Shown piece after piece: positions 48,301 to 64,000 of a stretch of 64,000 bases of DNA. Source of the DNA: Bacteroidota bacterium. GTDB lineage: Bacteria; Bacteroidota; Bacteroidia; B-17B0; Aurantibacillaceae. The notes below the pieces were generated by a model. That model was not told where the DNA came from. It searched no databases and saw only the letters and a list, made by a program, of their open reading frames with translations. Each line of letters starts with the position of its first letter. Positions within the stretch are counted from its first letter, which is position 1. A program made the translations under genes and the position numbers. The stretch spans positions 310,001 to 374,000 of the forward strand of contig JAJNDK010000003.1 of the NCBI GenBank assembly GCA_021156365.1, written 5' to 3'.

Positions 48301-50399
48301 TTCACAAATGTATAATCCGGATCCGTGGCCGTGCTTGTTCCCTGGCCCAGGCCGAAGTTCCAGTCGTAGGAAACAGCCCCGAGACTGGCATTGGTAAAGC
48401 TTACCGGTACGGGTGCACAGCCGGCAATGGAAGAGTGATTAAAATTAGCCTGCGGTTTCCCGAATACTTCTACGCTGTCGATGACTGTATCTCTGCAACC
48501 GAAAGCAGTGATGGCGATCAGCTGTACATAGTAGGTGGTGTCGGTCACACTGTTCGTAAGGATAGCGGCCGGATCCGTAGCTGTGGAAGTAGAACCATTC
48601 CCGAAGCTCCAGTCATAGCTCGCAGCACCGCTCGATCCGTTGGTGAATGTAACCGTATGAGGGGAACATCCGCTTGCGGGACTCAGCGTGAAAGATGCTA
48701 CCGGCAAAGGATTGATCGTTACCGGTTTGGTAATGCTATCGCTGCAATGTGCTGTATGTACTACCAGCTCTACATTAAATGTTCCGGATCCCGTGTAGGC
48801 GTGTGAAGGGTTTTGAATAGTGGAAGAACCCGTATCGTCAAAATCCCAATCCCAGGTGGTGACCGGATCTGCCGGCAGGGCAATGCTCGCATCACTGAAG
48901 GCAACCACACTGTTCACACAGGCATTGGCTACCGCAAAATCTGCATCCGGCGATTGGTATACACGGACGACCTGCGTGGATGTATGCACACAGGTATTGG
49001 CTGCGGTGACCTGCAGGCTCACTGTGTACGTGCCTACTGTGTATGTTTGCACAGGCGGAGTTGGTGAAGTGGAGTTATTGCTGTTCCCGAAGTTCCAGTT
49101 CCAGGATACCGCATCGGTGGATGCATCCGTAAACCCTACCGTAATATTATCACACATGCCGGAAGGCGCCATCACAAAGGACGAGACCGGTCTGGGCAGG
49201 ATGTTTACAACCACTCTGTCCGTATCCGAGCAGGAAGAAGCGGATCCGAAAATGAACGCAACGATCGTGATCGTATAGGTCCCGGCCGTATTATAAGTAT
49301 GTGTTCGTGGGCCGAAACCGGTAGTGGAAAAGCCCGGCGCATCTCCGAAATTCCAGCCATAAGAATAACCCAGGGAGCTTGTATTATTGAAGGTAAGTGT
49401 GGAACCTGCACAGGCAGTGGTTACCGGTGCCGTCACACCTGCTGTCGGAGGATTCACGATACTTACCGTGATCGTTACATCATCTATCCCGCAACGGTTA
49501 CTGTCGAGCAAAGTAATGTTGTAGTTACCCGTAGCAGGATAAGCAACGGTCAATGGGAAAGTAGGTGGCCAGGGTGCCCAGTCAATAATGGAGTCATGCC
49601 CCAGACCCCAGTAATCACCGAGGTTCCAGTATTCATAGCGTTGATCCACATTTCCCTGCGGAACACAATTCCGGTTGGTGGTATTGGTAAATGTAAATGC
49701 ATTATCGGGCCAGCAGCGGATGTATTGGTCGGCATTGATATCTGCAATATCCACATCATAGATCTGGATCGGGTTGAACTGTGCACTTGTAGGGGTACCG
49801 AAGCTACAATAGTTCTGCGCAGTGAGTGTCACTACTGTCTGACAGTTCACCGTTCCCTGCAGGTAGGTGTGAGAGATCGTCTGTCCTGCGTTTGTTTCAT
49901 TGAATGTTTGAGTCGGGCTGCCGTCGCCGAAGTTCCAGGTAAAAGTAGTGGTGGCCGAAACGTCTGTGCTGGCATTTGAAAATTGAAGCGCTGCCGGAGC
50001 ACAGGTAGTGGTTACTCCGCCGATAGGGATCTGGATCGAAGCATTCACCGGTTTTTCCATTACCACCAAACCCGTCACCACACAGGCCGGAGCCGATGTG
50101 GTAAGCGTAACAATGAAAGTGTCGATTGCTGCTGTATAATTATGAGGAACGATCGTATTTGCATTCAGGCTGGCCCCGGTCGTTGTTCCCGAAGCGTCTC
50201 CCCAGTCGATGGTATAACTGGTGATGGCCGTAGGCAGGGCAAAATTCAATGTATATGCTCCTCCTGAACAACTGATCCAGATGGGATTAGCAGAGGGCGC
50301 TCCTAAACCGTCATAAATTTGCGGGCATTGCCCGTAAAATTTCCCGGCAAATAATAAGAGAACAGAAAGGAGTGTATATTTAATAGTAGTACTCTTCAC
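45363..50399 (-). CDS. PKD-repeat adhesin with T9SS type B (CHU_C) tail
   Basis: 1678 residues. Signal peptide ends KFYGQ. About 17 PKD-like domains follow, marked by W-x-F/L-G-D-G motifs such as FTWNFGDGSP, SYDWSFGNGS and NYLWNFGDGSP. Between about 880 and 1340 they form a two-domain super-repeat. The last 90 residues (IPNAFTPNPNGG... YELLIYSRWGELLF... YIWKIVATT) are the gliding-motility-associated C-terminal domain that directs export as type B cargo. It should be carried to the cell surface and act as an adhesin. Translational coupling to the TPR/PD40 and SprF-like genes is the usual organisation of such modules. DNA repeats within it could recombine. Confidence 0.93.
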   Translation of the reverse strand: MKSTTIKYTLLSVLLLFAGKFYGQCPQIYDGLGAPSANPIWISCSGGAYTLNFALPTAITSYTIDWGDASGTTTGASLNANTIVPHNYTAAIDTFIVTLTTSAPACVVTGLVVMEKPVNASIQIPIGGVTTTCAPAALQFSNASTDVSATTTFTWNFGDGSPTQTFNETNAGQTISHTYLQGTVNCQTVVTLTAQNYCSFGTPTSAQFNPIQIYDVDIADINADQYIRCWPDNAFTFTNTTNRNCVPQGNVDQRYEYWNLGDYWGLGHDSIIDWAPWPPTFPLTVAYPATGNYNITLLDSNRCGIDDVTITVSIVNPPTAGVTAPVTTACAGSTLTFNNTSSLGYSYGWNFGDAPGFSTTGFGPRTHTYNTAGTYTITIVAFIFGSASSCSDTDRVVVNILPRPVSSFVMAPSGMCDNITVGFTDASTDAVSWNWNFGNSNNSTSPTPPVQTYTVGTYTVSLQVTAANTCVHTSTQVVRVYQSPDADFAVANACVNSVVAFSDASIALPADPVTTWDWDFDDTGSSTIQNPSHAYTGSGTFNVELVVHTAHCSDSITKPVTINPLPVASFTLSPASGCSPHTVTFTNGSSGAASYDWSFGNGSTSTATDPAAILTNSVTDTTYYVQLIAITAFGCRDTVIDSVEVFGKPQANFNHSSIAGCAPVPVSFTNASLGAVSYDWNFGLGQGTSTATDPDYTFVNATSFIQTYSVTLIATSVHGCRDTLVSPVNINPEPLFGFTMVPDTGCSVLSVSFPAVAGAVLYEWDLGDGTQTTGTAPTHNYSNPGLTPLSFTVQLIATNAFNCKDTTQGVVVVNPRPSASFTTSQTTGCPTLDVNLVNTSVGATNYLWNFGDGSPTSTLTSTSHTFDNLSTTAGVVYPLKLVAENSYGCKDSVTQNITIHPRVISDFTADVPPCPPGNVVFSNTSQGASSYAWAFGDTQLSAASNPSHLYAHDVSVQLSYTAQLIASNSFNCRDTTTLQITINPKPVAAFVASVTSGCPALDVSFTNTSNGTATYIWNFGDGSDTTNVTSPAHTFQNLSTSSNAIYPVKLVLENTFGCKDSISTSITVHPEVVSDFTTIVPTCPPGNVTFNNNSQGATSYAWDFDDTQTSTSINPTHLFANDNSVQLTYDVQLIASNAFNCKDTIVVPVVINPKPLANFNPSQSIGCPALNVTLNNTSVGNTINTWSFGDGTPGSSAVSPVHDFDNTSVSLDVVYPVKLVVENSFGCKDSISSSITVHPMVVASFSADTPICSPVNVQFFNLSQGAATYFWDLDDFTTTTATSPSHSYTNNGPGTTFAHVVLTATSAFGCTDDFDHTYSIFPTPQAAFSATPTSQLYPATVVAINNTTPNAGAFTSSWDYGDTQTSSLTFPVSHDYGTWGTYTISLVMSSPFCRDSTTQVVEIIPPIPVAGFKGTKEGCRSLEVSFQSLSQYENNYLWKFGDGNTSNQQNPTHTYNAAGVYDVTLIVFGDGGSDTLVGIDSVTVYDLPQAAFIANPVSVNAATDQVFCTNISVSPDGTALSYIYNFGDNTALETSSDPSHVYQEAGEFQITQIVTNTHGCVDTFVFSPRIKVEEQSSFTIPNAFTPNPNGGSEDGIYDAYAANNDIFHPVIRGVKKYELLIYSRWGELLFQTTDLKKGWDGYYKGKMCTQDVYIWKIVATTVDDKNFNKAGDVLLLKP

Positions 50400-51724: not shown

Positions 51725-52309
51725 TTAACCGTGCATGGTTTCCTTCTTGCTGTAGTTCTTCATGATACCCGCCTCGAAGTCCAGCCACTGTTGCCAGCGG
51801 GCATTCACATCCTCATAAGGAGAACCGTATTTGCGTGCAAAGCCAATGAACATCGTGTAATGGGTGGCTTCGCTGATCATCAGTTCATAATAAAATCCTT
51901 TCAGATCTTCGTCCCTGATGTTTTCCGAAAGCATCCGGAAACGCTCGCAGCTCCGTGCTTCGATCATAGCAGCGAACAACAGGCGATCGATCAGCGCGAT
52001 TTCCCGTTTGTGGCCTTTGCGCATGAAAGCATACAGCTCACCTGCATACTCATCCCGGCGTTCCCTGCCCAGCACCAGTCCGCGTTCTTTGATCTTCTGA
52101 TGCACCATTTCAAAATGCGTGAGCTCTTCCTTGGCAAGAGCCAGCATGGCATCTACCATATCGGTGTGCTCCGGATAATTCACCACCAGCCAGATCGCAT
52201 TACTGGCGGCTTTTTGTTCACAGAACGCGTGATCTGTCAATATTTCCGAAATATTGCCTTCTACCATTTTTACCCAACGGGGATCCGTTTCCAGTTTTAA
52301 TCCGAGCAT
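51725..52309 (-). CDS. MiaE-like tRNA hydroxylase (diiron ferritin-like)
   Basis: 194 residues from the ATG at 52309; the ATG at 52366 adds 19 residues unlike the family. Ferritin-like helices carry the diiron ligands Glu in HAFCEQKAA, E-x2-H in KEELTHFEMVH, and E-x2-H in SEATHYTMF. The layout matches MiaE-type enzymes that hydroxylate modified adenosine at position 37 of tRNA in an oxygen-dependent step. The preceding gap holds a 'GCAGAT' inverted repeat. Confidence 0.88.
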   Translation of the reverse strand: MLGLKLETDPRWVKMVEGNISEILTDHAFCEQKAASNAIWLVVNYPEHTDMVDAMLALAKEELTHFEMVHQKIKERGLVLGRERRDEYAGELYAFMRKGHKREIALIDRLLFAAMIEARSCERFRMLSENIRDEDLKGFYYELMISEATHYTMFIGFARKYGSPYEDVNARWQQWLDFEAGIMKNYSKKETMHG

Positions 52310-52350
52310 GTGAACGATTTTGGTGCAAAAATACGAAAGTCCTGGGAATA

Positions 52351-52510
52351 CAGACGCAGATTGCACGGATTACGCAGATTTGTTGTGGTAAATTCAGCTG
52401 CGGATTTCGCGGTTTTTTTTGTGCTTATGTTGAATGGAACGCAAACCCAGCGACAAATTGCAGTGTTATAATTTCTCCATCTATCTGCGAAATCTGCGTA
52501 AATCTGCGGC
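52351..52510. repeat. Dispersed inverted repeat, 'GCAGAT' family, copy 3
   Basis: Left arm 52351-52380 (CAGACGCAGATTGCACGGAT followed by TACGCAGATT) and right arm 52481-52510 (CTATCTGCGAAATCTGCGTA followed by AATCTGCGGC) are imperfect reverse complements. The element lies between the MiaE-like gene and the divergent GH3 gene. Confidence 0.83.
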
Positions 52511-52644
52511 AAAAGCTCTTTCCGGATCTTTGTAACTCTCTGCCGTGAGGCAGGTCTGCGCCCAAACTCATCAACGCACGCCTGTTAACAACAAAAAAAC
52601 CGGCACGATATTTACCGCTCTCATATCCGCTAAATTCGTGGGGT

Positions 52645-55596
52645 ATGCGTAAACTGGTTTATTTCATTAGTATCTTTGTTTTTTCTCTCATCTGTACTTC
52701 TTTTGTGCTCGTTCAACAGCCGAAAGAAGAAAAACCTCCTTTCTGGGCCATGGAGTCCAAATGGGTGGATTCTGTTTTTAAAACACTGAGCCCGGATGAA
52801 CGTATCGCCCAGCTCTTCATGGTAGCTGCCTATTCCAATAAGGATGCGAAACACGCAAAAGAAACCCGCGAGCTGATCGAAAAATACAATATCGGTGGAT
52901 TGATCTTCATGCAGGGCGGGCCCGTGCGTGAGGCCAAGCTGAACAACTATTACCAGACGAAAGCCAAAACACCTTTGCTTATCAGCATCGACGGTGAGTG
53001 GGGACTTGCCATGCGTCTCGACAGTACACCGCAGTATCCGCGTCAGATGACACTTGGAGCTATCCGGAACGATTCGCTTATTTACCAGATGGGAAAACAG
53101 ATCGCAAGCGAATGTAAGCTGATGGGCATTCATGTGAATTTTGCTCCCGTGGCGGATGTCAACAATAACCCGGAGAACCCGGTGATCTCTATGCGTTCCT
53201 TCGGCGAGGACAAATATGCAGTGGCCCGCAAATCGTATATGTACATGGCCGGTATGCAGGACAATGGCGTGATGGCTTCCGGCAAACATTTCCCGGGCCA
53301 TGGCGATACGGACAGTGATTCGCACAAAACACTTCCTACTATCCCGCACAGCATAGAGCGTCTCGATTCACTGGAGCTGTATCCTTTCAAAGAACTATTT
53401 GCCAAAGACCTCGCCAGTGTGATGGTGGCGCATCTCAATATCCCTGCCCTCGACACAACAACGAATCGCGCGAGCACCTTATCGAAAAATGTAGTGACAG
53501 ACCTGCTGAAAAACAAAATGCAATACAAAGGTCTCATCTTCACGGATGCGCTCAACATGAAAGGCGCGAGCAAATATGTAGCACCCGGCCTGATGGAAGC
53601 AAAGGCTTTGGTAGCCGGAAATGATGTACTGCTTTTCTCCGAAAATGTTCCGCTGGCAATCACTGAAATTAAAAAAGCGATCGCTGCCGGAGAGATCACT
53701 CAAGAGGAAATTGACGGGCGCTGCAAAAAAATACTGAAAGCGAAATTCTGGTGCGGGCTCGACAAAAAACAATTCGTGCGCAACAAAACGATCTACAAAG
53801 ACCTGAACACGGTTGCTTCCGAACAACTGCGTACAAAGCTGGCAGAGGCTTCCGTAACGGTACTGCACAACCATGACAACTATCTGCCGATCAGGAAAAC
53901 GGACACGCTGCGTATCGCCGAAGTATCGATAGGGGCAGAAGATCCCGATGTATTGTTCAACTCCCTTTCGGGCTATGCAACGACCAATCATTTCGGATTG
54001 TCTTATAAGCTGAAAGCAAATGATCGTGATACTTTGTTGGCGCGCTTGAAGAATTACAATCTCGTGGTGCTCAGTATCAACAAAACCAATAACAAACCGG
54101 CAGAGAATTTCGGACTCACTCCCGAAGCCCTGGAGCTGATCGATCTGATCATTACCCGTAACAAAACGATCACGGTGCTTTTCTCCAATCCCTACATTTT
54201 AGGAAAGATCGGCGGTCTTGAAAATAACCTCGCTGTAGTAGAAGCGTATGAATACAATCGGTTTTCGCAGAAAGCAGTAGCGGATGTGTTGTTCGGTGCT
54301 ATCGGTGCCAATGCGAAACTGCCTGTGAGCAGCGGGATCTACCGCCTCAACTCGGGGATCGAAACAACACCGGTTCGCGAACGAATTCCGCTCAAAGAAG
54401 AGACCGGGATCAATAAAAAAAAACTTCAGTCCATAGACAGCATCGCCCTGCAGGGCATAAAAGATGAGTGTTACCCGGGCTGCCAGATCGTAGCGATGCG
54501 TTACGGGCAGGTCTTCTACCAGAAATCATTCGGCAAATATACCTATGAAGGAAAAGAAAAAGTAACAGACTCTTCCGTTTACGATCTCGCCTCTGTTACC
54601 AAGATCACCGCTTCTGCCCTCATCCTGATGAAAATGGTGGAAGAGAAAAAAGTGGACCCCGACAAAACATTAGGAACGTATCTGCCCGGGCTGAAAGGAA
54701 CGAACAAGGAGAATATTGTCATCCGCCAGATGCTTACTCATCAGGCGGGTTTCCCGGCATGGATCCCTTTTTTTCTTCGCACGCTTACCAAAACGAACGA
54801 ATTCAAACCCGGCTATTACAGCACAAAAAAATCGGATGACTTTCCTACACAGGTAGCAGAGAATATGTATATCCGGAAAGGCTACACCGATTCCATCTAC
54901 AAACGAATTAATGAAGCGGAGCTCGAAAAACAGGGAGAATATGTATACAGCGATCTCGGTTATTATTACATAAAAAAAATAGCAGAGTCGCAGTACGACA
55001 AACCCTACAATGAGCTGCTGCGCGAAAAATTCTACCAGCCCATGAATGTGCAGCTGAGCTACCAACCGCTGGAAGTGTTTAATATAAAACGTATCGTGCC
55101 TACGGAGAACGATCTCAAATTCAGGAAACAATTGCTGCGCGGTTATGTGCACGACCAGGGGGCTGCCATGATGGGCGGAGTGGCAGGACATGCAGGTTTA
55201 TTCGGCACGGCAAAGGATGTAGCGGAAGTGATGCAGATGCTGATGAACGAAGGATTTTACAACGGCACCCAGTTTATTTCCAAAGAAGTGGTGAACGCAT
55301 TCACCCGCGAGTGCTGGTTTTGTCCAACGAACCGCCGCGGACTCTGCTTCGATAAACCTGAGCCCACCGACACGAAAGAAAGTCCCGTTACACATGAATG
55401 CTCCCTGCAAAGCTTCGGGCACAGCGGTTACACCGGCACCTTTGCCTGGGCCGATCCGGAGAACGGTTTGGTTTATGTCTTCCTTTCCAACCGTGTGTAT
55501 CCGGATGCAGAGCACAATAAATTAGCGAAGAGCGGCATCCGTGGCAAGATCCATAAATTACTGTACGAGGCAATGGCGGGTACGGAGGTGAAATAA
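52645..55596 (+). CDS. GH3 (NagZ-like) and serine hydrolase fusion
   Basis: 983 residues. Signal anchor at 1-24. Residues about 30-390 form a GH3 N-terminal domain with the NagZ loop KHFPGHGDTDSDSH (near 213-226) and nucleophile Asp near 300 in FTDALNMKG. A second GH3-like domain follows to about 590. Residues about 600-983 form a class C serine hydrolase with SVTK (Ser near 651), YSD (near 767, replacing YSN) and HSG (near 925). Together these suggest removal of N-acetylglucosamine from peptidoglycan fragments and cleavage of a nearby ester or peptide bond in one polypeptide. Fusions of this order occur in Bacteroidota. Activity on murein is inferred, not shown. Confidence 0.9.
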   Translation: MRKLVYFISIFVFSLICTSFVLVQQPKEEKPPFWAMESKWVDSVFKTLSPDERIAQLFMVAAYSNKDAKHAKETRELIEKYNIGGLIFMQGGPVREAKLNNYYQTKAKTPLLISIDGEWGLAMRLDSTPQYPRQMTLGAIRNDSLIYQMGKQIASECKLMGIHVNFAPVADVNNNPENPVISMRSFGEDKYAVARKSYMYMAGMQDNGVMASGKHFPGHGDTDSDSHKTLPTIPHSIERLDSLELYPFKELFAKDLASVMVAHLNIPALDTTTNRASTLSKNVVTDLLKNKMQYKGLIFTDALNMKGASKYVAPGLMEAKALVAGNDVLLFSENVPLAITEIKKAIAAGEITQEEIDGRCKKILKAKFWCGLDKKQFVRNKTIYKDLNTVASEQLRTKLAEASVTVLHNHDNYLPIRKTDTLRIAEVSIGAEDPDVLFNSLSGYATTNHFGLSYKLKANDRDTLLARLKNYNLVVLSINKTNNKPAENFGLTPEALELIDLIITRNKTITVLFSNPYILGKIGGLENNLAVVEAYEYNRFSQKAVADVLFGAIGANAKLPVSSGIYRLNSGIETTPVRERIPLKEETGINKKKLQSIDSIALQGIKDECYPGCQIVAMRYGQVFYQKSFGKYTYEGKEKVTDSSVYDLASVTKITASALILMKMVEEKKVDPDKTLGTYLPGLKGTNKENIVIRQMLTHQAGFPAWIPFFLRTLTKTNEFKPGYYSTKKSDDFPTQVAENMYIRKGYTDSIYKRINEAELEKQGEYVYSDLGYYYIKKIAESQYDKPYNELLREKFYQPMNVQLSYQPLEVFNIKRIVPTENDLKFRKQLLRGYVHDQGAAMMGGVAGHAGLFGTAKDVAEVMQMLMNEGFYNGTQFISKEVVNAFTRECWFCPTNRRGLCFDKPEPTDTKESPVTHECSLQSFGHSGYTGTFAWADPENGLVYVFLSNRVYPDAEHNKLAKSGIRGKIHKLLYEAMAGTEVK

Positions 55597-55686
55597 AAAT
55601 CCGCACAGGAGTATTAATTCTCGCATAAACAGTAGAATATCCACCTAAGCTTAAACAGATCTGCCCAAAAGCATTCCACCATTTTC

Positions 55687-55760
55687 TTCCGGAGCGCGGC
55701 CCCGTGTATTCCCTCTCCCGCCGGGAGAGGGTGCCCGTGCGAAAGGGTGAGGGTCATTTA
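55687..55760. repeat. Dispersed palindromic element (CCCTCTCCC/GGGAGAGGG), copy 1
   Basis: About 74 bases: TTCCGGAGC, then GGCCCCGTG, the palindrome CCCTCTCCCgccGGGAGAGGG and GAAAGGGTGAGGG. Copy 2 in the same orientation is at 57879-57952. The two bracket the genes at 55807-57742. I see nothing else in 55597-55806. Confidence 0.9.
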
Positions 55761-55806
55761 TCCTTTCCTCTTGTTTATCAGATCTAACTATTGGTAGATG
55801 ATATGC

Positions 55807-57087
55807 CTACCTCATAACCACTATTTTCCTTGTTGCCTTTTGATCTTTTGTTGATACTGTTAGGTAATAAACGCCATTTTTTTCAATATGCAGGAGATGA
55901 TCTTTTTTAGTGGAAGCTGAGGAATACACAGATTGTCCTGATTGATTGGTAACTTCAATATGAGTAATAACGGATGAGCTGCTGATATTTAGTTGCCCGT
56001 TCGACGGATTTGGAAAAACAGAAAAGAAGGATTCATCTTTACTGCTTTTTAAATCAATAGTTTCCACATCACCCCAATGCAGCGCATATAAAGTGTCCGA
56101 CGCATTATCGTATTGCAGTTTTATTACATTATCAATTGTAGGAGTAATGGGAGGTAGGGGATAAGCCGGACTGTGAATGACATTTCCGTTACTTACATCA
56201 ATACTGTATAAATTCCAGTTACCCGCTCCGTCTCCGCCCCTGAAAATATATCTTCCGTGATTGGAGTCGAAGGTTGGATACCTTGTTCCTGTTGCCGAAG
56301 CGTCAAGAACCCCGGGAATTGTAGCAATGGTCGTATAGGCGCCGGTCAGAATATCAATGGAAACCAAAGTATGAATAATATTAGGTGATGTTCCTGAAAG
56401 TAGAAGCCCATATAGTTTATTGGTTACGATGTCAAATTGAAAATCTGTATAAAAATAATTGGAAAGCGGGCTGTACAATATATTTCCGGTGTGTATGTCA
56501 ATAGTGAATAGCTTAGCCGTTGTTCCATTCACTCCCTTAATAATATATCTCCCGTTTTGTACGTCTAATGCAGCATATTGTCCTCCGCCCGAAAATCCGG
56601 TTATACCAACAAGGGTATTTATTATGTTTATAGCTCCGGTGGTTTGATCAATAGAAACAAAATAGAAAGGAGGAAAAAAAGGCGCGTTTTTATAGATCCC
56701 GTATAATTTATTCGTAGTAGTATCGTATTGAAGATAAAAAACATCATCCAGAGAATCGCCTGTATTTGGATGTGCTGGGTTGTGAAGTACACTGCCATCT
56801 GTTGCATCAATTGTCATTAAATAAGCGTTGTAAACAGAATCATGCCCTTTGAAAATATACTGGCGTTCTTTACAATTGAATGTTGTATACTGCCAGGTCA
56901 AACCACCATTTGGTATCCAGCGAATATCAGGTATGGGTGCAATTTTATGAAAGCTACCGTTTGAAGGATCCACCGATACGAAAAATTCGGATTTGGTTTG
57001 TGCGGTAAGGACCTTACTGAAAATAATGAATAGGAAAAATGGAAGAAGAAGATTTTTTCTTCGGCGTGGTATGTTTAGTATTCTCAT
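55807..57087 (-). CDS. Secreted propeller-like protein with T9SS type A tail
   Basis: 426 residues from the ATG at 57087; the ATG at 57240 adds 51 residues that read through the neighbouring gene. Signal peptide ends VLTAQ after a basic stretch. Repeats of about 60 residues follow, each like 'TIDxxTGxxxxxxxxxxFxxLQYD' (DATDGSVLH, DQTTGAINII, DIHTGNILY, DVSNGNVIH), which suggest a beta propeller. The last 80 residues (FSVFPNPSNGQLNISSSSVI... to a final KIVVM) form a type A sorting domain. The gene is more AT-rich than its neighbours. Exported by the type IX system; ligand unknown. Confidence 0.85.
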   Translation of the reverse strand: MRILNIPRRRKNLLLPFFLFIIFSKVLTAQTKSEFFVSVDPSNGSFHKIAPIPDIRWIPNGGLTWQYTTFNCKERQYIFKGHDSVYNAYLMTIDATDGSVLHNPAHPNTGDSLDDVFYLQYDTTTNKLYGIYKNAPFFPPFYFVSIDQTTGAINIINTLVGITGFSGGGQYAALDVQNGRYIIKGVNGTTAKLFTIDIHTGNILYSPLSNYFYTDFQFDIVTNKLYGLLLSGTSPNIIHTLVSIDILTGAYTTIATIPGVLDASATGTRYPTFDSNHGRYIFRGGDGAGNWNLYSIDVSNGNVIHSPAYPLPPITPTIDNVIKLQYDNASDTLYALHWGDVETIDLKSSKDESFFSVFPNPSNGQLNISSSSVITHIEVTNQSGQSVYSSASTKKDHLLHIEKNGVYYLTVSTKDQKATRKIVVMR

Positions 57088-57190
57088 AGGTGTTTTTTGT
57101 TGTATTAAAGATAAGATGAAAATTTCAATGCCTTTTCCACCGCATTGATTTTTTTTTCTGCCAGCAGCTGTTTTCAAACCCAGGTATAAT

Positions 57191-57742
57191 TCATTTCGTT
57201 TTCGACACCTGCACATCATCCACCCAAAGCCTTCCTGCACTCAGCACACTCAGCTCGAAGCGGAGTCGTTTCATATCAGCCGGGATCTTGTACAGGTATT
57301 CGTATTGCTGCCATTTTCCGTCGCTTTCGGAGCTTTTCAGCAAGCTAGTATCGGAGCTACGGAAAGCATCTACTCCTGCAGCATGAACAAGGAAAGCACT
57401 TTCCTTGCTTTTGATCCAAAAACTGATCCGGTATTCTTCTCCCGCTTCCACCGGGATTTCCTGTGCAATCCCGGGCGAGAACTTCCCACCCTTATCCGAA
57501 CATTCCCGCACCGTAAACTGTAAGGACTGCTGCCCCTCCTTAAAATCCTTTTTGTTGAAAGTGAAATCGAAATCTCCGCCTGTTGTTTTTGGGGTGTACA
57601 CCAGCCAGTTCACCGGCAATCCGTTCCTCACCTCTTCGAAGCCTCCGTTCAGTCCGGCGTTCGTATCGGGTGCCGATTCGCTCATTTGTTGGCTGCAGCA
57701 GAATAGCGGCAGACTTCCGATAAATAGTTGTATTGTTTTCAT
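57191..57742 (-). CDS. Lipoprotein with carbohydrate-binding-like beta sandwich
   Basis: 183 residues from the ATG at 57742 (57805 adds 21 residues with no signal character). A signal peptide ends in the CC of LPLFCCSQ, a probable lipobox. The mature part (about 30-183) begins NGGFEEVRNGLPVNW and ends LRFELSVLSAGRLWVDDVQV, the usual ends of a CBM4/9/CenC-like jelly-roll domain that binds sugar polymers. No catalytic residues. It precedes the secreted propeller-like gene by about 100 bases and may be cotranscribed. Confidence 0.8.
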   Translation of the reverse strand: MKTIQLFIGSLPLFCCSQQMSESAPDTNAGLNGGFEEVRNGLPVNWLVYTPKTTGGDFDFTFNKKDFKEGQQSLQFTVRECSDKGGKFSPGIAQEIPVEAGEEYRISFWIKSKESAFLVHAAGVDAFRSSDTSLLKSSESDGKWQQYEYLYKIPADMKRLRFELSVLSAGRLWVDDVQVSKTK

Positions 57743-57878
57743 AACCTGGGTTTGGATGCTGCAAAAGTAGAAACAGGCTAAGGAATATTTTTTGATATGG
57801 ATCAAAAAACAAAATAGGATTTGAACGCGAACATACCCTTATTCAAAAACACATCCAACCAAACACCCCAATATCACC

Positions 57879-57952
57879 TTCCGGAGCAAGGCCCCGTGCG
57901 TTCCCTCTCCCGCGGGAGAGGGCTGCCTGTGCGAAAGGGTGAGGGCCACTTA
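57879..57952. repeat. Dispersed palindromic element (CCCTCTCCC/GGGAGAGGG), copy 2
   Basis: Same orientation and about 85 percent identical to the copy at 55687-55760, with the central palindrome reduced to CCCTCTCCCGCGGGAGAGGG. It lies between the lipoprotein gene and the 58067 gene. The rest of 57743-58066 holds only the upstream region of 58067. Confidence 0.9.
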
Positions 57953-58066
57953 CCATCTCACTTTTTCACATTTCTTAAGATTTCCCCCACAACTTTTCCC
58001 CCGCCCTTTTCGTTTTATTACTAACAAACAAAAGGCTACGCCTGGCCGATATAAACACTACACAAA

Positions 58067-58855
58067 ATGAGTACAACAGAAAGCGGTCATGCCAGGAATA
58101 CCGCAAACTTCGAACAGCTCGTTACCATGCTGGCATCTTATGGTAACAATTATTCACCCTCCAGGCCGGAGCTCAGTATAACCGGTCTTCTCGCAATGCT
58201 GCAAAACAGCCGGCAGGCACTCGACGATGTGCGCAATAGCTTCTCCGCCTGGAAAAACGCAACCAATGCAAGAGAAATAGCTTTTGATCCACTTGGCAAA
58301 TTTTCTTCCCGCCTGCTCAATGCATTGATTGCTTCCGGAGCAACAAAGCAAACCGTCAACGACCTGCGCACCCGTGTACGAAAAATGCAGGGTGTCCGTG
58401 CAAAGCCCATCATTCGCCGGTCGGAAGAAGAAGAACAGCCTGCCTCACTTGTTGGCGAAAATGCAAATGCTTCGGAAGAGCAGCAGGAAACAACACCACG
58501 GCACCGTTCCGTTTCGCAGAGAAGCTTCGACAGTCGTATGGATCATTTTGACAGCATGATAGGGCTGCTGTCTATTGAACCGCTTTATGCGCCTAATGAA
58601 CAGGAATTCCAGGTAAATACCCTGCAGGCGCAGTTAGTTCAGCTCAGGACGCTCAATACTGCGGTTATCAATGCAAATGCCGCCCTGTTCAATCATCGTA
58701 TCGCACGGAACAATATATTATACAATGAAACGGATGGAATGCTTGCACTTGTTCGCGGAGCCAAAGCCTATGTCAAAGCGAAGTTCGGACAAGCTTCCCC
58801 GGAATTTGTACAGCTGAGCAGACTTGTTTTTGTAAGAGTCGTTCCAAAACGATGA
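58067..58855 (+). CDS. Unrecognised helical protein with an internal two-fold repeat
   Basis: 262 residues, no signal peptide and no membrane segment. Residues about 13-110 (NFEQLVTMLASYGNNYSPS...) and about 160-258 (HFDSMIGLLSIEPLYAPNE...) align along their whole length: F-E/D-x-L/M, then L-x-S, then Y-x-P, then L-x-A-x-L, then R-x-L, then a conserved AR, then a closing helix. The halves are joined by a charged Glu/Gln/Arg-rich linker (about 118-158). Predicted all-alpha. I do not recognise a named domain. Followed by a strong terminator and preceded by a dispersed palindrome; no partner gene is adjacent. The AN-rich composition sets it apart from its neighbours. Confidence 0.75.
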   Translation: MSTTESGHARNTANFEQLVTMLASYGNNYSPSRPELSITGLLAMLQNSRQALDDVRNSFSAWKNATNAREIAFDPLGKFSSRLLNALIASGATKQTVNDLRTRVRKMQGVRAKPIIRRSEEEEQPASLVGENANASEEQQETTPRHRSVSQRSFDSRMDHFDSMIGLLSIEPLYAPNEQEFQVNTLQAQLVQLRTLNTAVINANAALFNHRIARNNILYNETDGMLALVRGAKAYVKAKFGQASPEFVQLSRLVFVRVVPKR

Positions 58856-58873
58856 GCAAACAATTTTTTACCT

Positions 58874-58904
58874 GAGGGGAACCGGTTATCGGCTCCCCTT
58901 TTTT
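58874..58904 (+). terminator. Intrinsic terminator of the 58067 gene
   Basis: Stem AGGGGA-CCG (58875-58884) pairs with CGG-TCCCCT (58890-58899), followed by a T tract, about 20 bases after the stop. From here to 59250 I see no supported gene or other element. Confidence 0.9.
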
Positions 58905-59250
58905 ATGCCTGCTGCTGAGCATTGTCTTCTTGTTCAGGTAACCTTTGCCTTATTACACACAGAGAGTAATTCAACGCAGGAACACTCCGGTTCCTTTCAC
59001 ACCTGTCTGTTAAGCCCTCAGTCCACATTGTGATTTTTGCAGGATCATTTGTGCGTCATACACCCGCAGTTTTATTTTTTGCACTTCTGGTTTTGAGAAT
59101 TGCACAATCGGCTTGTTCCGTTTCAGGCCATCTTGCGGTCCCTTCACTTGCGTCTGTATTTTCAGCAGGTACTGTCGCTTTTCTTTCACATCCTGCTGCA
59201 ATCTTTGCAGAAGCGACTAAACCCTGAAATAAACACCTTACTTCGTCCAC

Positions 59251-59285
59251 AAAAAACAAGGAGCCCGTTTCCGGACTCCTTAATT
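59251..59285 (-). terminator. Intrinsic terminator of the tail-fibre-like gene
   Basis: On the minus strand, AAGGAGTCCGG pairs with the following GGGCTCCTT and ends in TTTTTT, about 25 bases past the stop at 59309. Confidence 0.85.
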
Positions 59286-59308
59286 AAATAGTAAAAAGGT
59301 GTAAAAGC

Positions 59309-61504
59309 CTATTTATTCTTCACCATACGTTTGCTTTCAATGATCTTGCCATCTGCTACCAAAGTATAGGTATAGATCCCATTGCTCAGGTCGCTGGCAA
59401 AAACATTCAGCATGCCTTTCCCTGCTAATGGTTTAAGATCCGAAGAGTTGATCAGCTTTCCATCCATGTTATAGAACAGGATCTGTGCTTTCTGAACACC
59501 ATCTGTCAGTGTGTAAGAAATAGAGGTCTGCTCCGCAAAAGGGTTCGGAACGTTCTGCTCCAGCACGATAGCCTGGGCATCATTCAGCGTAACGTTCCCG
59601 ACTTTATCAGAAGCACCTGTTCCGTTTTCCGAAATTACGCCGGTCAGATTTTTCACCAACGCTTTTAACTCCTCCACTTCTTTGCGTTGCTCTTTGAAAG
59701 CTTCTACCAACACAGGAATAATACCAACATAGTTCACGGTATTGTATCCCTGACCATCTTCCATTACCAATTGCGGGAACACTTCTTTCAGTTCCTGTGC
59801 AATGAAACCGATCTGTTCACCTTTCGGAAAGTTCTTCTCTTTAAACTCTTCGGTCCGGTACTGGTAAGTGTAGCCCTTGAGCATTGCTAATTTTTCAGAT
59901 ACACTCGTCAGTTGTTTGATATCGTTTTTATACCGTTTGTCGGAAGTCCACATATACTGCGAACCCCAAACCGTTCCGGCAAAATTTACATCACCCTGGA
60001 ACCAGCCTGCCCAATGATTGGGAGCAGTGCCTGTATTGGAAGCGAAGATCCCGTAGCTGTTCGTTCCGCCGCTGGCCGATGTCAGTACTCCGTAGTTGAT
60101 GGATGCACCGCCACTTGCACGGGCTACCACAGCTAAGTTGGTACCCGGATTGGTAGAAGTAGAAAAGAACTGCCCGGCCGTCGTGCTTTGGCTGCCTGCA
60201 TTCCCGGTGGCAACCCCATTCACAGCAACGTTGAGAGGAGCATTGGCAGCGGTGAATTGCCCGCCCATGTTCGTGATATTGCCCGCCGGTTGTGCCTGGT
60301 CGCTGATCCCGTTCACGCCGGTAATGGTTGCTGCTGAACCCGACGAAACAAGGTCCTTATTCACAAAGCTGCCACCGAGTGAGGAGGAAGCAACAGGAAC
60401 GGTGTTTTGTTGCAGCGTGCTGAATTTAGCAGGTAGCGGTGTGAAACAGGCAGCATAACCAAGTCCGATAGCATGCGTGGAAGAAAGTCCCTGCCCCGTG
60501 AAATAGATATTGTGTGTATTCATTGGGATCTCACGTGGATTAAGTAGCTTACCGGGAGCTGTACTTTCATTGCAGTTTTGCCCCAGCTGTATGAAGGTAC
60601 CGATGCCGGTGCTCACTACAGACAAACCATTATTGGCAGCCGGCGTAGAAGAAGGTAATGTACCCCATGTTCCGTTACCCAAAAGCACCTGTGTAGGATT
60701 CCCGGAGAAAGCAAGCTTGCTGAATACAATATCATTCGGATTGCTTCCCTGCATGATCCCCGTCATGATATAATTAGCAGGAAGGCTTGGAACTATTCTG
60801 AGTCGTGCATTTCCCAGCACATCCAGTTTTTGTTGAGGTACGACATCGATCCCGAAGTTTCTCGGGCTGTTGTTGAATCGTGAACGAACGATCATATGGC
60901 CCTGGGCATTCGTTTCGAAATCGGTATAAACACCGAGTACTGCATTATTGTTTTGCACACGCGTCAGTCGCAGTTGTGGCCCGCTGGCAAATAAAATATC
61001 TGCAGCCCGTTTCGGGTTCAGGAGGTTAACACCAAACCGCCTCGTAGATCCGTCTTCCTGCACCAGCACATTCTTGAAGAACTGTGTGCTTGCAGCCGGG
61101 ATAAAAGAAGGAGGATTCGTCACCCACACCTTGGACGAATAATTAACCGGTGCAGCAGGTCCCACACCCACAGAATATCCCTGGTAAAAATCACCAACCG
61201 GGTTGCTGGAACAATGCCCCATGAAATAGCTGTTGGCCGTGATGGTACTGTTTTGCCAGTACAGAGTACTGGAGGCGGTCAGCATAATGCCTCGTTTCCA
61301 GCCCTGTGCATTGGCTGCCAGTGATGTGATAGAAGGGCTTATCTGCAATGGAAAATTGGAAGTAAATGAGCCTGGACCGCCCGGGCCGATACCCACATTA
61401 CCGGTTCTGTAGGTAAGACCCAATGGCGTTGCTGATCCGGCCCATTGAGCCTGGACTAACTGAATGGATAAAACCATCAGTGCAAATAGGAGTAATTTTT
61501 TCAT
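59309..61504 (-). CDS. Secreted tail-fibre-like protein: S74 chaperone domain and T9SS tail
   Basis: 731 residues from the ATG at 61504; 61513 is possible. Signal peptide MKKLLLFALMVLSIQLVQAQ. The body (about 30-505) is low in charge, rich in Asn, Thr, Ser and Gly, and contains VGIG and GxFTAAN repeats. An S74 intramolecular chaperone domain follows (about 515-625): the catalytic Ser lies in SDKRYKNDIK near 520, with the family block GFIAQELKEVFPQLV. A coiled coil precedes the final type A sorting domain (about 650-731). S74 domains cut themselves off after assembling trimers, so this could form a trimeric surface fibre. An upstream 34-base leader is shared with 62588-63328. Confidence 0.9.
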   Translation of the reverse strand: MKKLLLFALMVLSIQLVQAQWAGSATPLGLTYRTGNVGIGPGGPGSFTSNFPLQISPSITSLAANAQGWKRGIMLTASSTLYWQNSTITANSYFMGHCSSNPVGDFYQGYSVGVGPAAPVNYSSKVWVTNPPSFIPAASTQFFKNVLVQEDGSTRRFGVNLLNPKRAADILFASGPQLRLTRVQNNNAVLGVYTDFETNAQGHMIVRSRFNNSPRNFGIDVVPQQKLDVLGNARLRIVPSLPANYIMTGIMQGSNPNDIVFSKLAFSGNPTQVLLGNGTWGTLPSSTPAANNGLSVVSTGIGTFIQLGQNCNESTAPGKLLNPREIPMNTHNIYFTGQGLSSTHAIGLGYAACFTPLPAKFSTLQQNTVPVASSSLGGSFVNKDLVSSGSAATITGVNGISDQAQPAGNITNMGGQFTAANAPLNVAVNGVATGNAGSQSTTAGQFFSTSTNPGTNLAVVARASGGASINYGVLTSASGGTNSYGIFASNTGTAPNHWAGWFQGDVNFAGTVWGSQYMWTSDKRYKNDIKQLTSVSEKLAMLKGYTYQYRTEEFKEKNFPKGEQIGFIAQELKEVFPQLVMEDGQGYNTVNYVGIIPVLVEAFKEQRKEVEELKALVKNLTGVISENGTGASDKVGNVTLNDAQAIVLEQNVPNPFAEQTSISYTLTDGVQKAQILFYNMDGKLINSSDLKPLAGKGMLNVFASDLSNGIYTYTLVADGKIIESKRMVKNK

Positions 61505-61520
61505 GATCTTCATATTTTTT

Positions 61521-61554
61521 TGCCTACTCTGTTTAAGCTTTTCGGCTTCCGCTT
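61521..61554 (-). promoter_or_regulatory. Shared leader motif, copy in front of 61504
   Basis: The 34-base stretch, read on the minus strand as AAGCGGAAGCCGAAAAGCTT then AAACAGAGTAGGCA, ends 16 bases before the start codon. The copy at 63349-63383 has one extra T. Reading frames differ, so the conservation is not in protein; a regulatory RNA or protein-binding site is likely. Confidence 0.75.
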
Positions 61555-61574
61555 CGTTGCTTCTTTTTATCATG

Positions 61575-61618
61575 TAAAAAAGGAGGACCATCTCCTTGCA
61601 GATGCAGGTCCTCCTCCC
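61575..61618 (-). terminator. Intrinsic terminator of the 61625-63328 operon
   Basis: On the minus strand, AGGAGGACC (61615-61607) pairs with GGTCCTCCT (61589-61581), with an inner CATCT/AGATG stem, and runs into TTTTTT. It separates 61625 from the following tail-fibre-like gene. Confidence 0.92.
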
Positions 61619-61624
61619 GAAACA

Positions 61625-62584
61625 TTACTGCTTTATGATCTTGTGGTTATAGTTGAGTGCAGTTCCTGAAATGGTGATAAAATAAAGACCGGGCTTCAGT
61701 TCCTTCAGGTCAATCGATGCATCCGGCTCATACAGCTTGTCTTCCGTCTTTAATAACCTGCCGTTAATGTCCCTCAGCTCTACTTTTATTTTCTCACCCC
61801 TCACCGCATTCGGAATAAGAACAGAAATGAGATCATTCGTTGGATTGGGATAGATAGCGATGTTGGCATTTTTATCCGCAGTTTCCAGCCCATGCTTCTC
61901 TTCTTCTTCTTTCCATGCAGGATCAAACAAACGATACGAGCCTCCGCAACCATCGATGATTACAGATACAGCTCCGGTGCCTGTGAGTATGGAAACAAAA
62001 CCCGGGAGCAATGTAACGGACTGGCCGGCATCGAATTCTGCTAAACCATTGACCGGGCTCACGCTGGATGAAACAGATAAGTAACTGGTTACTTCATAAT
62101 CCTGCGGTGGCAAGGGAGAGAAACCCTGTGTAAGTGTCGCCGCATTGGGGCAGGTCGTATTTACATAATAGTAAAAAGTACTCTGCCAGTCCCAGATAAG
62201 GCCGATGTGCTTACGGATCTCGAATTTCAGCAGCTGTGTCTGGCCTATAGGAGTACCCGGAGGCAGATAGTAGCTTATATTAAACTCGTCGAATTCGGCA
62301 AACGTAAAGACAGACCCGGAATCCCAGGAAGTAAGTCCTACAACAATATCCAGGTTCTGTACAAGATTCGGAGCATCCTGGGTAATAAGGATCTTGTATT
62401 CAGCACCGATGTCGAAATTATCCATACTCAGGTACCCGGAGTTGGTAGTGACTATTCCTACAAGCGGTACGCCGTCATATTGCCAGATACTTACATTCCC
62501 ATTAATGGTTGCAGGATCCGAGACGGCGAATTTTGGCAGACAAACGATCATGATCGCTGTCAGTATTGAAATGATCGTTTTCAT
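61625..62584 (-). CDS. Secreted protein with T9SS type A tail
   Basis: 319 residues. Signal peptide ends FAVSD (about 23). The centre (about 30-225) is strand-rich with acidic and aromatic runs (FDIGAEYKILITQ, LRFEI-like strands) and no known catalytic motif. It ends with a type A sorting domain (about 240-319: IAIYPNPTNDLISVLIP... LNYNHKIIKQ). It lies 3 bases after the short tail-fibre-like gene and ends at a strong terminator, so the two are cotranscribed. Function not recognised. Confidence 0.85.
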   Translation of the reverse strand: MKTIISILTAIMIVCLPKFAVSDPATINGNVSIWQYDGVPLVGIVTTNSGYLSMDNFDIGAEYKILITQDAPNLVQNLDIVVGLTSWDSGSVFTFAEFDEFNISYYLPPGTPIGQTQLLKFEIRKHIGLIWDWQSTFYYYVNTTCPNAATLTQGFSPLPPQDYEVTSYLSVSSSVSPVNGLAEFDAGQSVTLLPGFVSILTGTGAVSVIIDGCGGSYRLFDPAWKEEEEKHGLETADKNANIAIYPNPTNDLISVLIPNAVRGEKIKVELRDINGRLLKTEDKLYEPDASIDLKELKPGLYFITISGTALNYNHKIIKQ

Positions 62585-62587
62585 GAT

Positions 62588-63328
62588 TTATTTTTTTTGT
62601 TTCAGGTCTTTCACTTCTTTTTCCAGACGGATCACATACAGTGTGAGTTCCTCGATCTTTTCCAAAAGCTTCGCATCCATCGAGGCCACGTCCAGCCCAT
62701 TCGTTACCATTTCCTGTGCAGAAGGAACTCCTGGAAGATGTTTGTGCTCGTTCACATAAGCTTCCACTTCGGGCAGCGACAGCATTTTGTAGTTTTTATC
62801 AAACACATAATCCGACCAGTTGCCGGTAGTTTCCACGGCCACTTTCACCTTTTCCGTCAGGATCCCTGTTTCCACATAGAGCTTGTAACCAGCAGGAAGG
62901 CCTATCGTTGCCGGATTCCCGATCAGCACATTACTGTTCACTGTCAGGCCCGCGGTAGGATTGTCGGTTTTGATCCCTACATTTCCGTTGCTGTGTTTCA
63001 GGTAAAGGAAATAATTTCCCGGATTAGGTTGTCCGCTGCCCGGTCTCCAGAAATTCAGGCCGTTAGGTGTACATTCCATTCCCCAGATATTGCTGTTCGA
63101 AGGAGCAGGTCCCAGTGTGATCTGTGGACCACCGTAGGTATTGTTTCCTGTCACAGTAAGGATACCATCCGTCACCTGGAGCTTGGCGCCGGCTGTTACT
63201 GTTGTTGTCCCGATCCCAACGCTTCCCGAACGGTAGGTAGTACCTGTCGTTACGACTGAACCAAGCCATTGAGCCTGTGTTGTCTGGATAGCTATAGCCA
63301 TCGCCGCAAATAGAATTAATTTTTTCAT
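62588..63328 (-). CDS. Secreted tail-fibre-like protein, no S74 domain
   Basis: 246 residues from the ATG at 63328; an in-frame ATG at 63415 runs through the leader. Signal peptide MKKLILFAAMAIAIQTTQAQ, nearly the same as that of 61504. The N-terminal YRSGSVGIGTTT and following Gly/Asn-rich strands match the opening of the longer paralogue. The C-terminal part (about 175-246) has the motif WSDYVFDKNYKMLSLPEV, then HLPGVPSAQEM and a coiled coil LLEKIEELTLYVIRLEKEV. It has neither S74 nor sorting domain, so it may be a shorter fibre subunit or assemble by its coiled coil. Confidence 0.85.
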   Translation of the reverse strand: MKKLILFAAMAIAIQTTQAQWLGSVVTTGTTYRSGSVGIGTTTVTAGAKLQVTDGILTVTGNNTYGGPQITLGPAPSNSNIWGMECTPNGLNFWRPGSGQPNPGNYFLYLKHSNGNVGIKTDNPTAGLTVNSNVLIGNPATIGLPAGYKLYVETGILTEKVKVAVETTGNWSDYVFDKNYKMLSLPEVEAYVNEHKHLPGVPSAQEMVTNGLDVASMDAKLLEKIEELTLYVIRLEKEVKDLKQKK

Positions 63329-63348
63329 GATCTGATTGTGTTTGATTG

Positions 63349-63383
63349 TGCCTACTCTGTTTAAAGCTTTTCGGCTTCCGCTT
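63349..63383 (-). promoter_or_regulatory. Shared leader motif, copy in front of 63328
   Basis: 35-base relative of the element at 61521-61554, with one extra T, ending 20 bases before the start codon. It would lie inside the transcript started from the TATTTTTG element at 63436. Confidence 0.75.
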
Positions 63384-63428
63384 AGCCCTTTTTGTTCCCG
63401 TTTTGCAGAAACCAAAAAAGCATGGCGG

Positions 63429-63436
63429 CAAAAATA
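63429..63436 (-). promoter_or_regulatory. candidate -7 element (TATTTTTG) for 63328
   Basis: On the minus strand TATTTTTG fits TAnnTTTG. Transcription would begin near 63422, giving a leader of about 94 bases that contains the shared 35-base motif. No clear -33 box. Confidence 0.4.
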
Positions 63437-63514
63437 GCTTCGCTAAATAGCTGAATACTAATTAAAACGCAGCGATGTGACGAACCCGGTATAAAATAGT
63501 GACGAACCGGAGGC

Positions 63515-64000
63515 TTAAAATTGGATTTTTTGAAGTTCTCCGACATAGGTTTCACCCACAGCTATTTTTTCGCCACGAACGATCACCTCTTTTTTGCTTT
63601 TTTCCTGTATTTTATCCAGGCGTACAATGCTGGAACGGCTGATACGAAGGTATTCCAGAGGATCCGGCACCAGTTCAAGGAAGCCTCCGATCTTGTAACG
63701 GGTCACAAATTTTTTTGTATCCGTTTGTATTTCAATGTAGTTACCACTTGCTTTTACAAAACAAATATCATTGGTAACGATGCGGATGTGTTTGCCCTGT
63801 TCTTTAAAAACCACATAATTTGTTTTCTTCTTCAGGCGCTTTAACAATTGCCGGAGGAGCTCACGGCTGATATCACGGTTATAGCTCAGGATCCGGAACC
63901 GGAAAAAGAGATACACCATTGCTAAAACAAAAACAAAGACTGCCGCTGCGAACCAGCCAGTTTTCCAGAACGGCGGAGCGATCCGGAATTCAAATTCCCG
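63515..64000 (-). CDS. Membrane-anchored LytTR regulator, N-terminus beyond the window
   Basis: The frame stays open past the right edge. The last 27 residues before the ATG at 63919 (EFRIAPPFWKTGWF, then a run of Ala/Val/Phe) are those of a Y_Y_Y-type domain end followed by one membrane helix; the helix then passes into a cytoplasmic LytTR DNA-binding domain (about 50-130 of the visible part: VVFKEQGKHIRIVTNDICFV, YKIGGFLELVP, RISRSSIVRLDKI). Such proteins normally carry a large extracytoplasmic propeller sensor and bind DNA from the membrane. It lies just upstream of, and in line with, the tail-fibre-like cluster. Regulation of that cluster is an inference. Confidence 0.85.
   Translation of the reverse strand, partial: REFEFRIAPPFWKTGWFAAAVFVFVLAMVYLFFRFRILSYNRDISRELLRQLLKRLKKKTNYVVFKEQGKHIRIVTNDICFVKASGNYIEIQTDTKKFVTRYKIGGFLELVPDPLEYLRISRSSIVRLDKIQEKSKKEVIVRGEKIAVGETYVGELQKIQF

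Follow-up and report, generated by a model that had tools for sequence, protein, structure and literature searches.

A duplicated helical protein family of Bacteroidota and a linker peptide with the exact letters of a turn in the nucleoid protein HU

The gene and its surroundings

The window is the whole stretch of DNA that was analyzed, 64 kb in length, and harbors at 58067..58855 (+) the coding sequence of a duplicated, predicted all-alpha protein of 262 aa, one of four homologous copies in its genome. The ORF coordinates given in the initial annotation are exact. The gene stands alone, with large neighboring ORFs on either side that lie on the opposite strand, and it is followed by a predicted intrinsic terminator (58874..58904, +) that consists of a hairpin at 58874-58900 and a run of six T. 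The hairpin folds with −16 kcal/mol (z −2.81, equaled by 5 of 200 shuffles) and is not among the predictions of a simple consensus terminator scan. Both the monocistronic arrangement and the strong terminator had been proposed before and are retained. The claim that the composition of the gene is unlike that of its neighbors is not: the GC content of its two 790-base bins is 0.475 and 0.471, which falls inside the range of the remaining bins across 52000-63849 (0.386-0.523).

Upstream of the gene, at 57903-57922, lies a perfect palindrome (ccctctcccgcgggagaggg), and a similar GC-rich inverted repeat is found upstream of the paralog L003; the palindrome is possibly an intergenic repeat. Elsewhere in the window, 45363-50399 (−) encodes a very large protein in which many PKD-type repeats can be recognized by eye and whose ending, also judged by eye, presumably resembles type IX secretion sorting domains.

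Fold and internal duplication

The AlphaFold2 model of the window protein, calculated with 43 homologs, has a mean pLDDT of 87.9 and a pTM of 0.76 and takes on two helical halves, in agreement with the earlier all-alpha assignment. The first half (residues 5-108, 58079..58390, +) comprises predicted helices at 5-24, 38-73, 76-89, and 94-108, and the second half (residues 150-258, 58514..58840, +) comprises helices at 154-170, 183-219, 225-240, and 245-251; invariant columns and the repeat support both halves in addition to the model. They are joined by a charged, low-confidence linker (residues 109-149, 58391..58513, +), which is predicted to be disordered or flexible, as the pLDDT in blocks of ten is 46-56 across residues 111-150. 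The linker is the site of the HU-type tag of the relatives and is untagged here according to the alignment and the motif list, with a loss placed on the tree.

The two halves are repeats of one helical domain, as had been noticed in the window sequence, and the proof comes from the family profiles. When the profile of residues 1-115 is compared with that of residues 140-262 (members L032 and L035 left out), 101 columns align with a probability of 97.6% and a score of 69.3, compared to no more than 22.1 when the columns were shuffled 100 times and 13.9 with one half reversed. The window sequence alone gives a marginal signal, with a local score of 41 between its halves that is reached by 37 of 2000 shuffles. 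Across 43 aligned rows, Y29-x-P31, R214, Y219, K233, and Y235 are invariant and Y174-x-P176 is conserved; in the alignment of 50 rows Y29, P31, P173, R211, Y216, K230, and Y232 (L002 numbering) still are. The two-domain family is characterized by both halves, a Y-x-P in each of them, and R214, Y219, K233, and Y235, all of which are present in the window protein.

A multi-copy family without a name

The protein had been regarded as an orphan, which does not hold. Its own genome encodes three paralogs that are 55, 42, and 38% identical to it, and the family is present in 30 of 100 related genomes, with up to seven matches per genome, and in 9 of the 395 genomes of a phylum sample, its own genome included. 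A scan of named genomes with the window protein as query returned zero relatives, and the same scan with nine closer relatives as queries returned 57 loci. These include Pedobacter chitinilyticus, P. jeongneungensis, P. paludis, Hufsiella arboris, and Paradesertivirga mongoliensis as well as metagenome-assembled genomes labeled Chitinophagaceae, Saprospiraceae, and Ignavibacteria. The family is thus multi-copy, patchily distributed, and so far unnamed in Bacteroidota. Alignments were made from 50 distinct members after fragments and near-copies had been dropped. At one locus (L072/L073) the contig of genome G089 is 100% identical over its whole 8610 bases to G028, a genome of another taxonomic family, and this locus may be contamination or a very recent transfer.

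The identity searches support the proposal that this is an uncharacterized family with a single helical domain in duplicate. The window protein reaches no curated cut-off in Pfam or NCBIfam, and neither do the 43 members compared with these collections, among the 25 commonest families listed. The nearest profiles are TMP_3 (PF20155), with 15.4 bits at a gathering cut-off of 41, and the IglI family (NF041244), with 21.2 bits at a curated cut-off of 100; the latter is matched at all by 6 of 43 members (best E 5.1e-5). The HU profile PF00216 gives no match to the window protein at E ≤ 10. PHROGs and PADLOC yielded nothing solid for the family, and no PDB chain was found by sequence below E 0.2. 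Foldseek found no PDB structure at E ≤ 0.001 for the window protein (best E 0.21) and no viral model at E ≤ 0.001 for the paralog L002. The best VIA-align match, the ligand-binding domain of McpS, has a Z of 8.5 over 186 residues at 4.0 Å, where the yardstick for helical bundles is about 13. Structural searches lead to generic helical bundles, and no known adaptor was matched. A phage or plasmid origin was rejected, since plasmids hold no relative of P0001 at E 1e-3, phages hold none at E 0.01, and viral contigs hold no relative of the family member L005.

An HU-type peptide in the linker

A search for paralogs across Bacteroidota, as the initial annotation had suggested, led to the multi-copy family and to a tag in its linker. 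When the family is aligned, the peptide SKLTKADAG surfaces in a linker that is otherwise unconserved. In the slightly laxer form K(L/T)TKAD(A/S)G it is found in the linker of 22 of 50 aligned relatives, and a stricter count of the first set, with its 50 distinct members, gives 20 tagged and 30 untagged. A second set of 61 family ORFs from named genomes, which overlaps the first, contains 10 tagged and 51 untagged ORFs. In Pedobacter chitinilyticus the member at L224 is untagged. The tag is therefore not essential to the family, as it is missing from the window copy and from most members of both sets.

In 21 tagged rows the identity within the motif is 0.94, compared to 0.23 in the eight residues before it and 0.19 in the eight residues after it. 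The codons are free to vary. Identity at third codon positions is 0.562 in the family tags, where codons shuffled among the copies give 0.586; for HU the values are 0.573 observed and 0.558 expected, and for the remaining tagged proteins 0.466 and 0.457. Since third positions are as mixed as shuffled codons, the tag is kept at the protein level and is no copied DNA element, and its origin from an inserted coding repeat was rejected on the same grounds.

On a tree that was built without the linker, the tag state changes at least 11 times, and at least 7 of these changes are forced by well-supported branches; the tag has been gained or lost repeatedly in the family. The window copy, whose linker lacks K(L/T)TKAD(A/S)G, is sister to the tagged paralog L002 (support 99/94) and belongs to a six-member clade with five tagged members (99/95). 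Because it is nested in this way among tagged members, a loss of the tag is most likely, and this made the tag invisible to a reader of the window alone. In the model of L002, the tag (residues 113-120) lies in the predicted flexible linker, where residues 116-119 form a short turn of helix.

Many relatives have a linker tag that equals a stretch of HU letter by letter, and the HU of the window's own genome reads MNKGELIDAIASHSKLTKADAGRALDA here. The place of the tag in the HU profile follows from PF00216 matches, and in the HU structure this stretch is the turn between helices 1 and 2 (α1-α2). The tag itself, as a conserved linker peptide identical to the HU turn, is well supported. The likeness to HU (Bac_DNA_binding, PF00216) ends there: the window protein has neither an HU domain nor the tag, and its tagged relatives carry the turn and no rest of HU.

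Tagged proteins outside the family

A DNA pattern for KLTKAD(A/S)G matches 71 sites in 31 of 60 genomes, with a maximum of nine per genome, whereas the backward pattern matches 0 sites in the same 60 genomes. Another eight-residue stretch of HU, NPQTGKEI, served as a control: 42 of the 60 genomes have a single site each, 42 sites in total, and in all 15 genomes with both an NPQTGKEI site and a PF00216 search the site falls within the HU gene. Unlike NPQTGKEI, which is single-copy per genome and within the HU gene, the tag turn has thus left HU. Three viral contigs also match the tag pattern; in translation these matches look like chance, and the small cluster L188, from a viral contig, is probably chance as well.

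With the tag masked, 102 distinct tagged ORFs fall into 24 clusters. Full HU accounts for 33 ORFs and the two-domain family for 25, and the other 44 are spread over 22 clusters of 1 to 13 members, some of which are probably distant relatives of one another. Among the types are half-domains of HU in tandem, small proteins in which hydrophobic residues alternate and which are tagged in mid-chain or at the C-terminus, and a protein encoded beside a helical + Fn3 gene. The position of the tag varies among the unrelated proteins and is often the very C-terminus. The variant of the tag tracks that of the HU in the same genome weakly, in 40 of 71 cases compared to 29.8 by shuffling (p 0.03, for 19 genomes and ignoring kinship). 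In genomes with a different HU turn, no corresponding lineage-specific tag was found.

Among open-licence PMC texts no paper with SKLTKADAG or KLTKADAG was found, and a literature search returned no paper for DUF6943 or for the combination of HU protein, Bacteroidetes, and short linear motif. To our knowledge, no described system uses the HU turn as a portable tag.

A SWIB-type peptide

A loop of the SWIB domain (PF02201), LKxVFGGK, behaves like the HU-type tag. The pattern (K/R)LKxVFGG(K/R) occurs in the linker of L075/L195, at the C-terminal end of the HU-half protein from L217, in four small cassette proteins, and in two six-helix-like membrane proteins. The SWIB protein of genome G030 has the identical letters (...INADAKLKTVFGGKGQISMFE) and matches PF02201 with E 6.0e-28. 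The likeness is confined to this loop, found in one linker and seven other proteins, whereas the carriers lack the SWIB fold; the window copy is untagged in this respect too. Non-SWIB carriers occur in G009, G015, G021, G032, G049, and G055, and four of these six genomes have a SWIB gene; in G021 and G032 the tag is present and no SWIB gene was found. SWIB sequences from four of the seven SWIB genomes (G009, G015, G030, and G036) vary at the tag positions. HU-type and SWIB-type tags share the frame KLxxxx(A/G)G(K/R). In two genomes a multi-helix predicted membrane protein (L297, L298) contains KLK(L/T)VFGGKGQ near its N-terminus.

Gene context of the tagged proteins

The statement that no partner gene lies nearby stands for the window, where patterns for the HU-type tag and for the HU half-domain have zero matches in six frames over all 64 kb, and falls for the relatives. 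In 5 of 93 distinct family genes (L075, L082, L083, L084, and L217), an HU-half gene follows directly downstream on the same strand. The intergenic gaps are 15, 46, −10, and −31 bases in four of the five cases, which suggests that the family gene and the HU-half gene are coupled. L082 and L083 are not independent, as the two loci, whose genomes belong to different genera, match at 93.5% over 9.1 kb. In L075, L084, and L217 the family protein upstream of the HU-half gene has no HU-type tag in its own linker. The small downstream proteins contain two HU half-domains. They score 40.9 (L075), 31.9 (L084), and 27.2 bits (L082) against PF00216, above its gathering cut-off of 22.4, and these three match positions 1-38 of the profile only, that is, without the DNA-binding arms. 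One HU-half protein was searched against phages and had no relative there.

Many of the other tagged proteins reside in a recurrent cassette that consists of a 249-aa protein (MARQKGIIKLKGKIGDLSFYKTQDG...), two predicted membrane proteins of about 75 and 61 aa, and one to three tagged proteins (L143, at G000:C16:94000-104000, L135-L152, and L277-L294; membrane nature judged by eye). Of the 13 cassette loci scanned, 5 have a tRNA gene in their vicinity. The 249-aa protein has no Pfam match; it was matched on a Marivirga plasmid, with no annotated gene under the match. Among 100 related genomes, 30 contain it, and 15 of these also hold the two-domain family (itself in 30 of 100), where 9 would be expected if the two were independent, a mild excess. 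Of 20 cassette regions that were chosen by the 249-aa protein alone, 17 were viewed, and 9 have a tagged gene while 8 have none, one of the 8 being a contig that ends early. Beside the cassette of the window's own genome, a SymE-like toxin protein is encoded at L143:5308-5829 (−) (PF08845, 33 bits, cut-off 29). An assignment of the tagged set to a defence system was not retained, as no PADLOC model matched seven of its proteins.

Possible role of the tag

Taken alone, the window protein represents yet another helical family without a name, and it is the linker tag that raises interest. The claim of novelty concerns the set of proteins that share the tag and does not extend to the helical fold of the window copy. 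The window copy itself is untagged, and its tagged relatives suggest that HU and SWIB peptides have a use not described before.

The preferred reading, to which a probability of roughly 40% is given, is that of a helical scaffold in which the linker can present part of a nucleoid protein and so offer a docking tag. The window protein would be one of four paralogs of a cytoplasmic scaffold or adaptor family, and the scaffold would consist of two four-helix units and a flexible linker. In many relatives the linker displays the eight-residue peptide of the HU α1-α2 turn, and in other relatives the HU piece is present in trans on the small protein encoded directly downstream; unrelated small proteins carry the HU peptide or the SWIB-domain loop. 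The reader of such a docking tag would be a cellular partner for which HU (and SWIB) is the usual contact on the nucleoid, and docking would bring the helical bundles, or whatever bears the tag, to that partner. Several results speak against this reading: the reader protein was not found in this analysis, many members have no tag, tag variants track HU weakly, genomes with a different HU turn showed no tag to match it, SWIB-type tags occur in G021 and G032 where no SWIB gene was found, and structural searches matched no known adaptor. The untagged window copy may have a scaffold role without docking or may depend on its paralogs. If the docking-tag reading is true, the tag predicts an HU partner that nobody has named.

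Shared peptides on unrelated proteins are familiar from encapsulin cargo peptides, the encapsulation peptides of microcompartments, and leaders derived from Nif11 and nitrile hydratase. As in these, a short conserved peptide sits on flexible parts of otherwise unrelated proteins; the difference is that the peptide here copies a turn of a nucleoid protein and that neither a shell nor a transporter or maturation enzyme turned up.

A bolder reading, put at about a one-in-four chance, is that in bacteria of this Bacteroidota family the tags work in the manner of a password. The HU turn KLTKADAG and the SWIB loop LKxVFGGK would then be exchangeable between unrelated scaffold, membrane, and small accessory proteins, either in cis or in a next-door gene, and a single reader that recognizes HU and SWIB would recruit, guard, or process all of them.

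It is rather unlikely, though worth weighing, that the tag is a substrate site, at which a protease or modifying enzyme that acts on HU and SWIB cuts or modifies the linkers and, in the two-domain family, would thereby separate or mark the halves. The low-confidence linker around the tag, its varied placement in unrelated proteins, often at the C-terminal end, and the frame common to both tags are all consistent with such a site. HU-β is reported to be a substrate of Lon (PMC6098112, PMC3391209). In the first of these studies, Lon is described as cleaving HU-β at 62 sites with no fixed sequence (PMC6098112), so that a strict eight-residue site is unexpected for this protease. The surroundings of the tagged genes revealed no further enzyme that would be a candidate.

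The probability is lower again that the tagged proteins are bait, imitating HU and SWIB as integrated decoys for phage or plasmid attackers of the nucleoid; in doing so they might also set off the cassette's small membrane proteins. Such a role would fit the patchy cassettes with their two small predicted membrane proteins and, in 5 of 13 loci, a tRNA neighbor, and likewise the patchy family loci, one of which is common to different genera. It is weakened by the missing PADLOC models and phage relatives, and the membrane nature of the cassette proteins was judged by eye.

That the window protein is a part of a phage or of a contractile-injection apparatus, such as a tape-measure or a type VI IglI-like protein, is very improbable: the long helices and the weak TMP_3 and IglI scores recall such proteins, but the scores stay far below the cut-offs, relatives in phages, plasmids, and viral contigs are missing, and no tail or secretion gene is among the neighboring window ORFs inspected. 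The least probable explanation, that the tags are functionless relics inherited from ancient HU fusions, would account for the whole HU helix 1 and turn kept in some tagged proteins (PF00216 position 1 to 33-38), but the near-identity of the motif with free codons between flanks of about 20% identity and the forced state changes on the tree are unlike decay; provided that the motif alignment is sound, they refute it as an account of the tags in general.

Helical proteins with an Fn3-like part

Proteins that combine a helical part of a size similar to that of the family with an Fn3-like part (e.g., L145:3199-3804) were compared with the two-domain family by profiles. The probabilities are 0.5% and 6.1% and the score of 22.2 is at shuffle level, so common ancestry is not supported. 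These helical + Fn3-like proteins (L145:3199-3804, L157-L186) occur in 18 of 60 genomes, and one of them has a tagged gene directly downstream. In the window's own genome they give seven matches, one of which is a fragment in a 47-aa frame.
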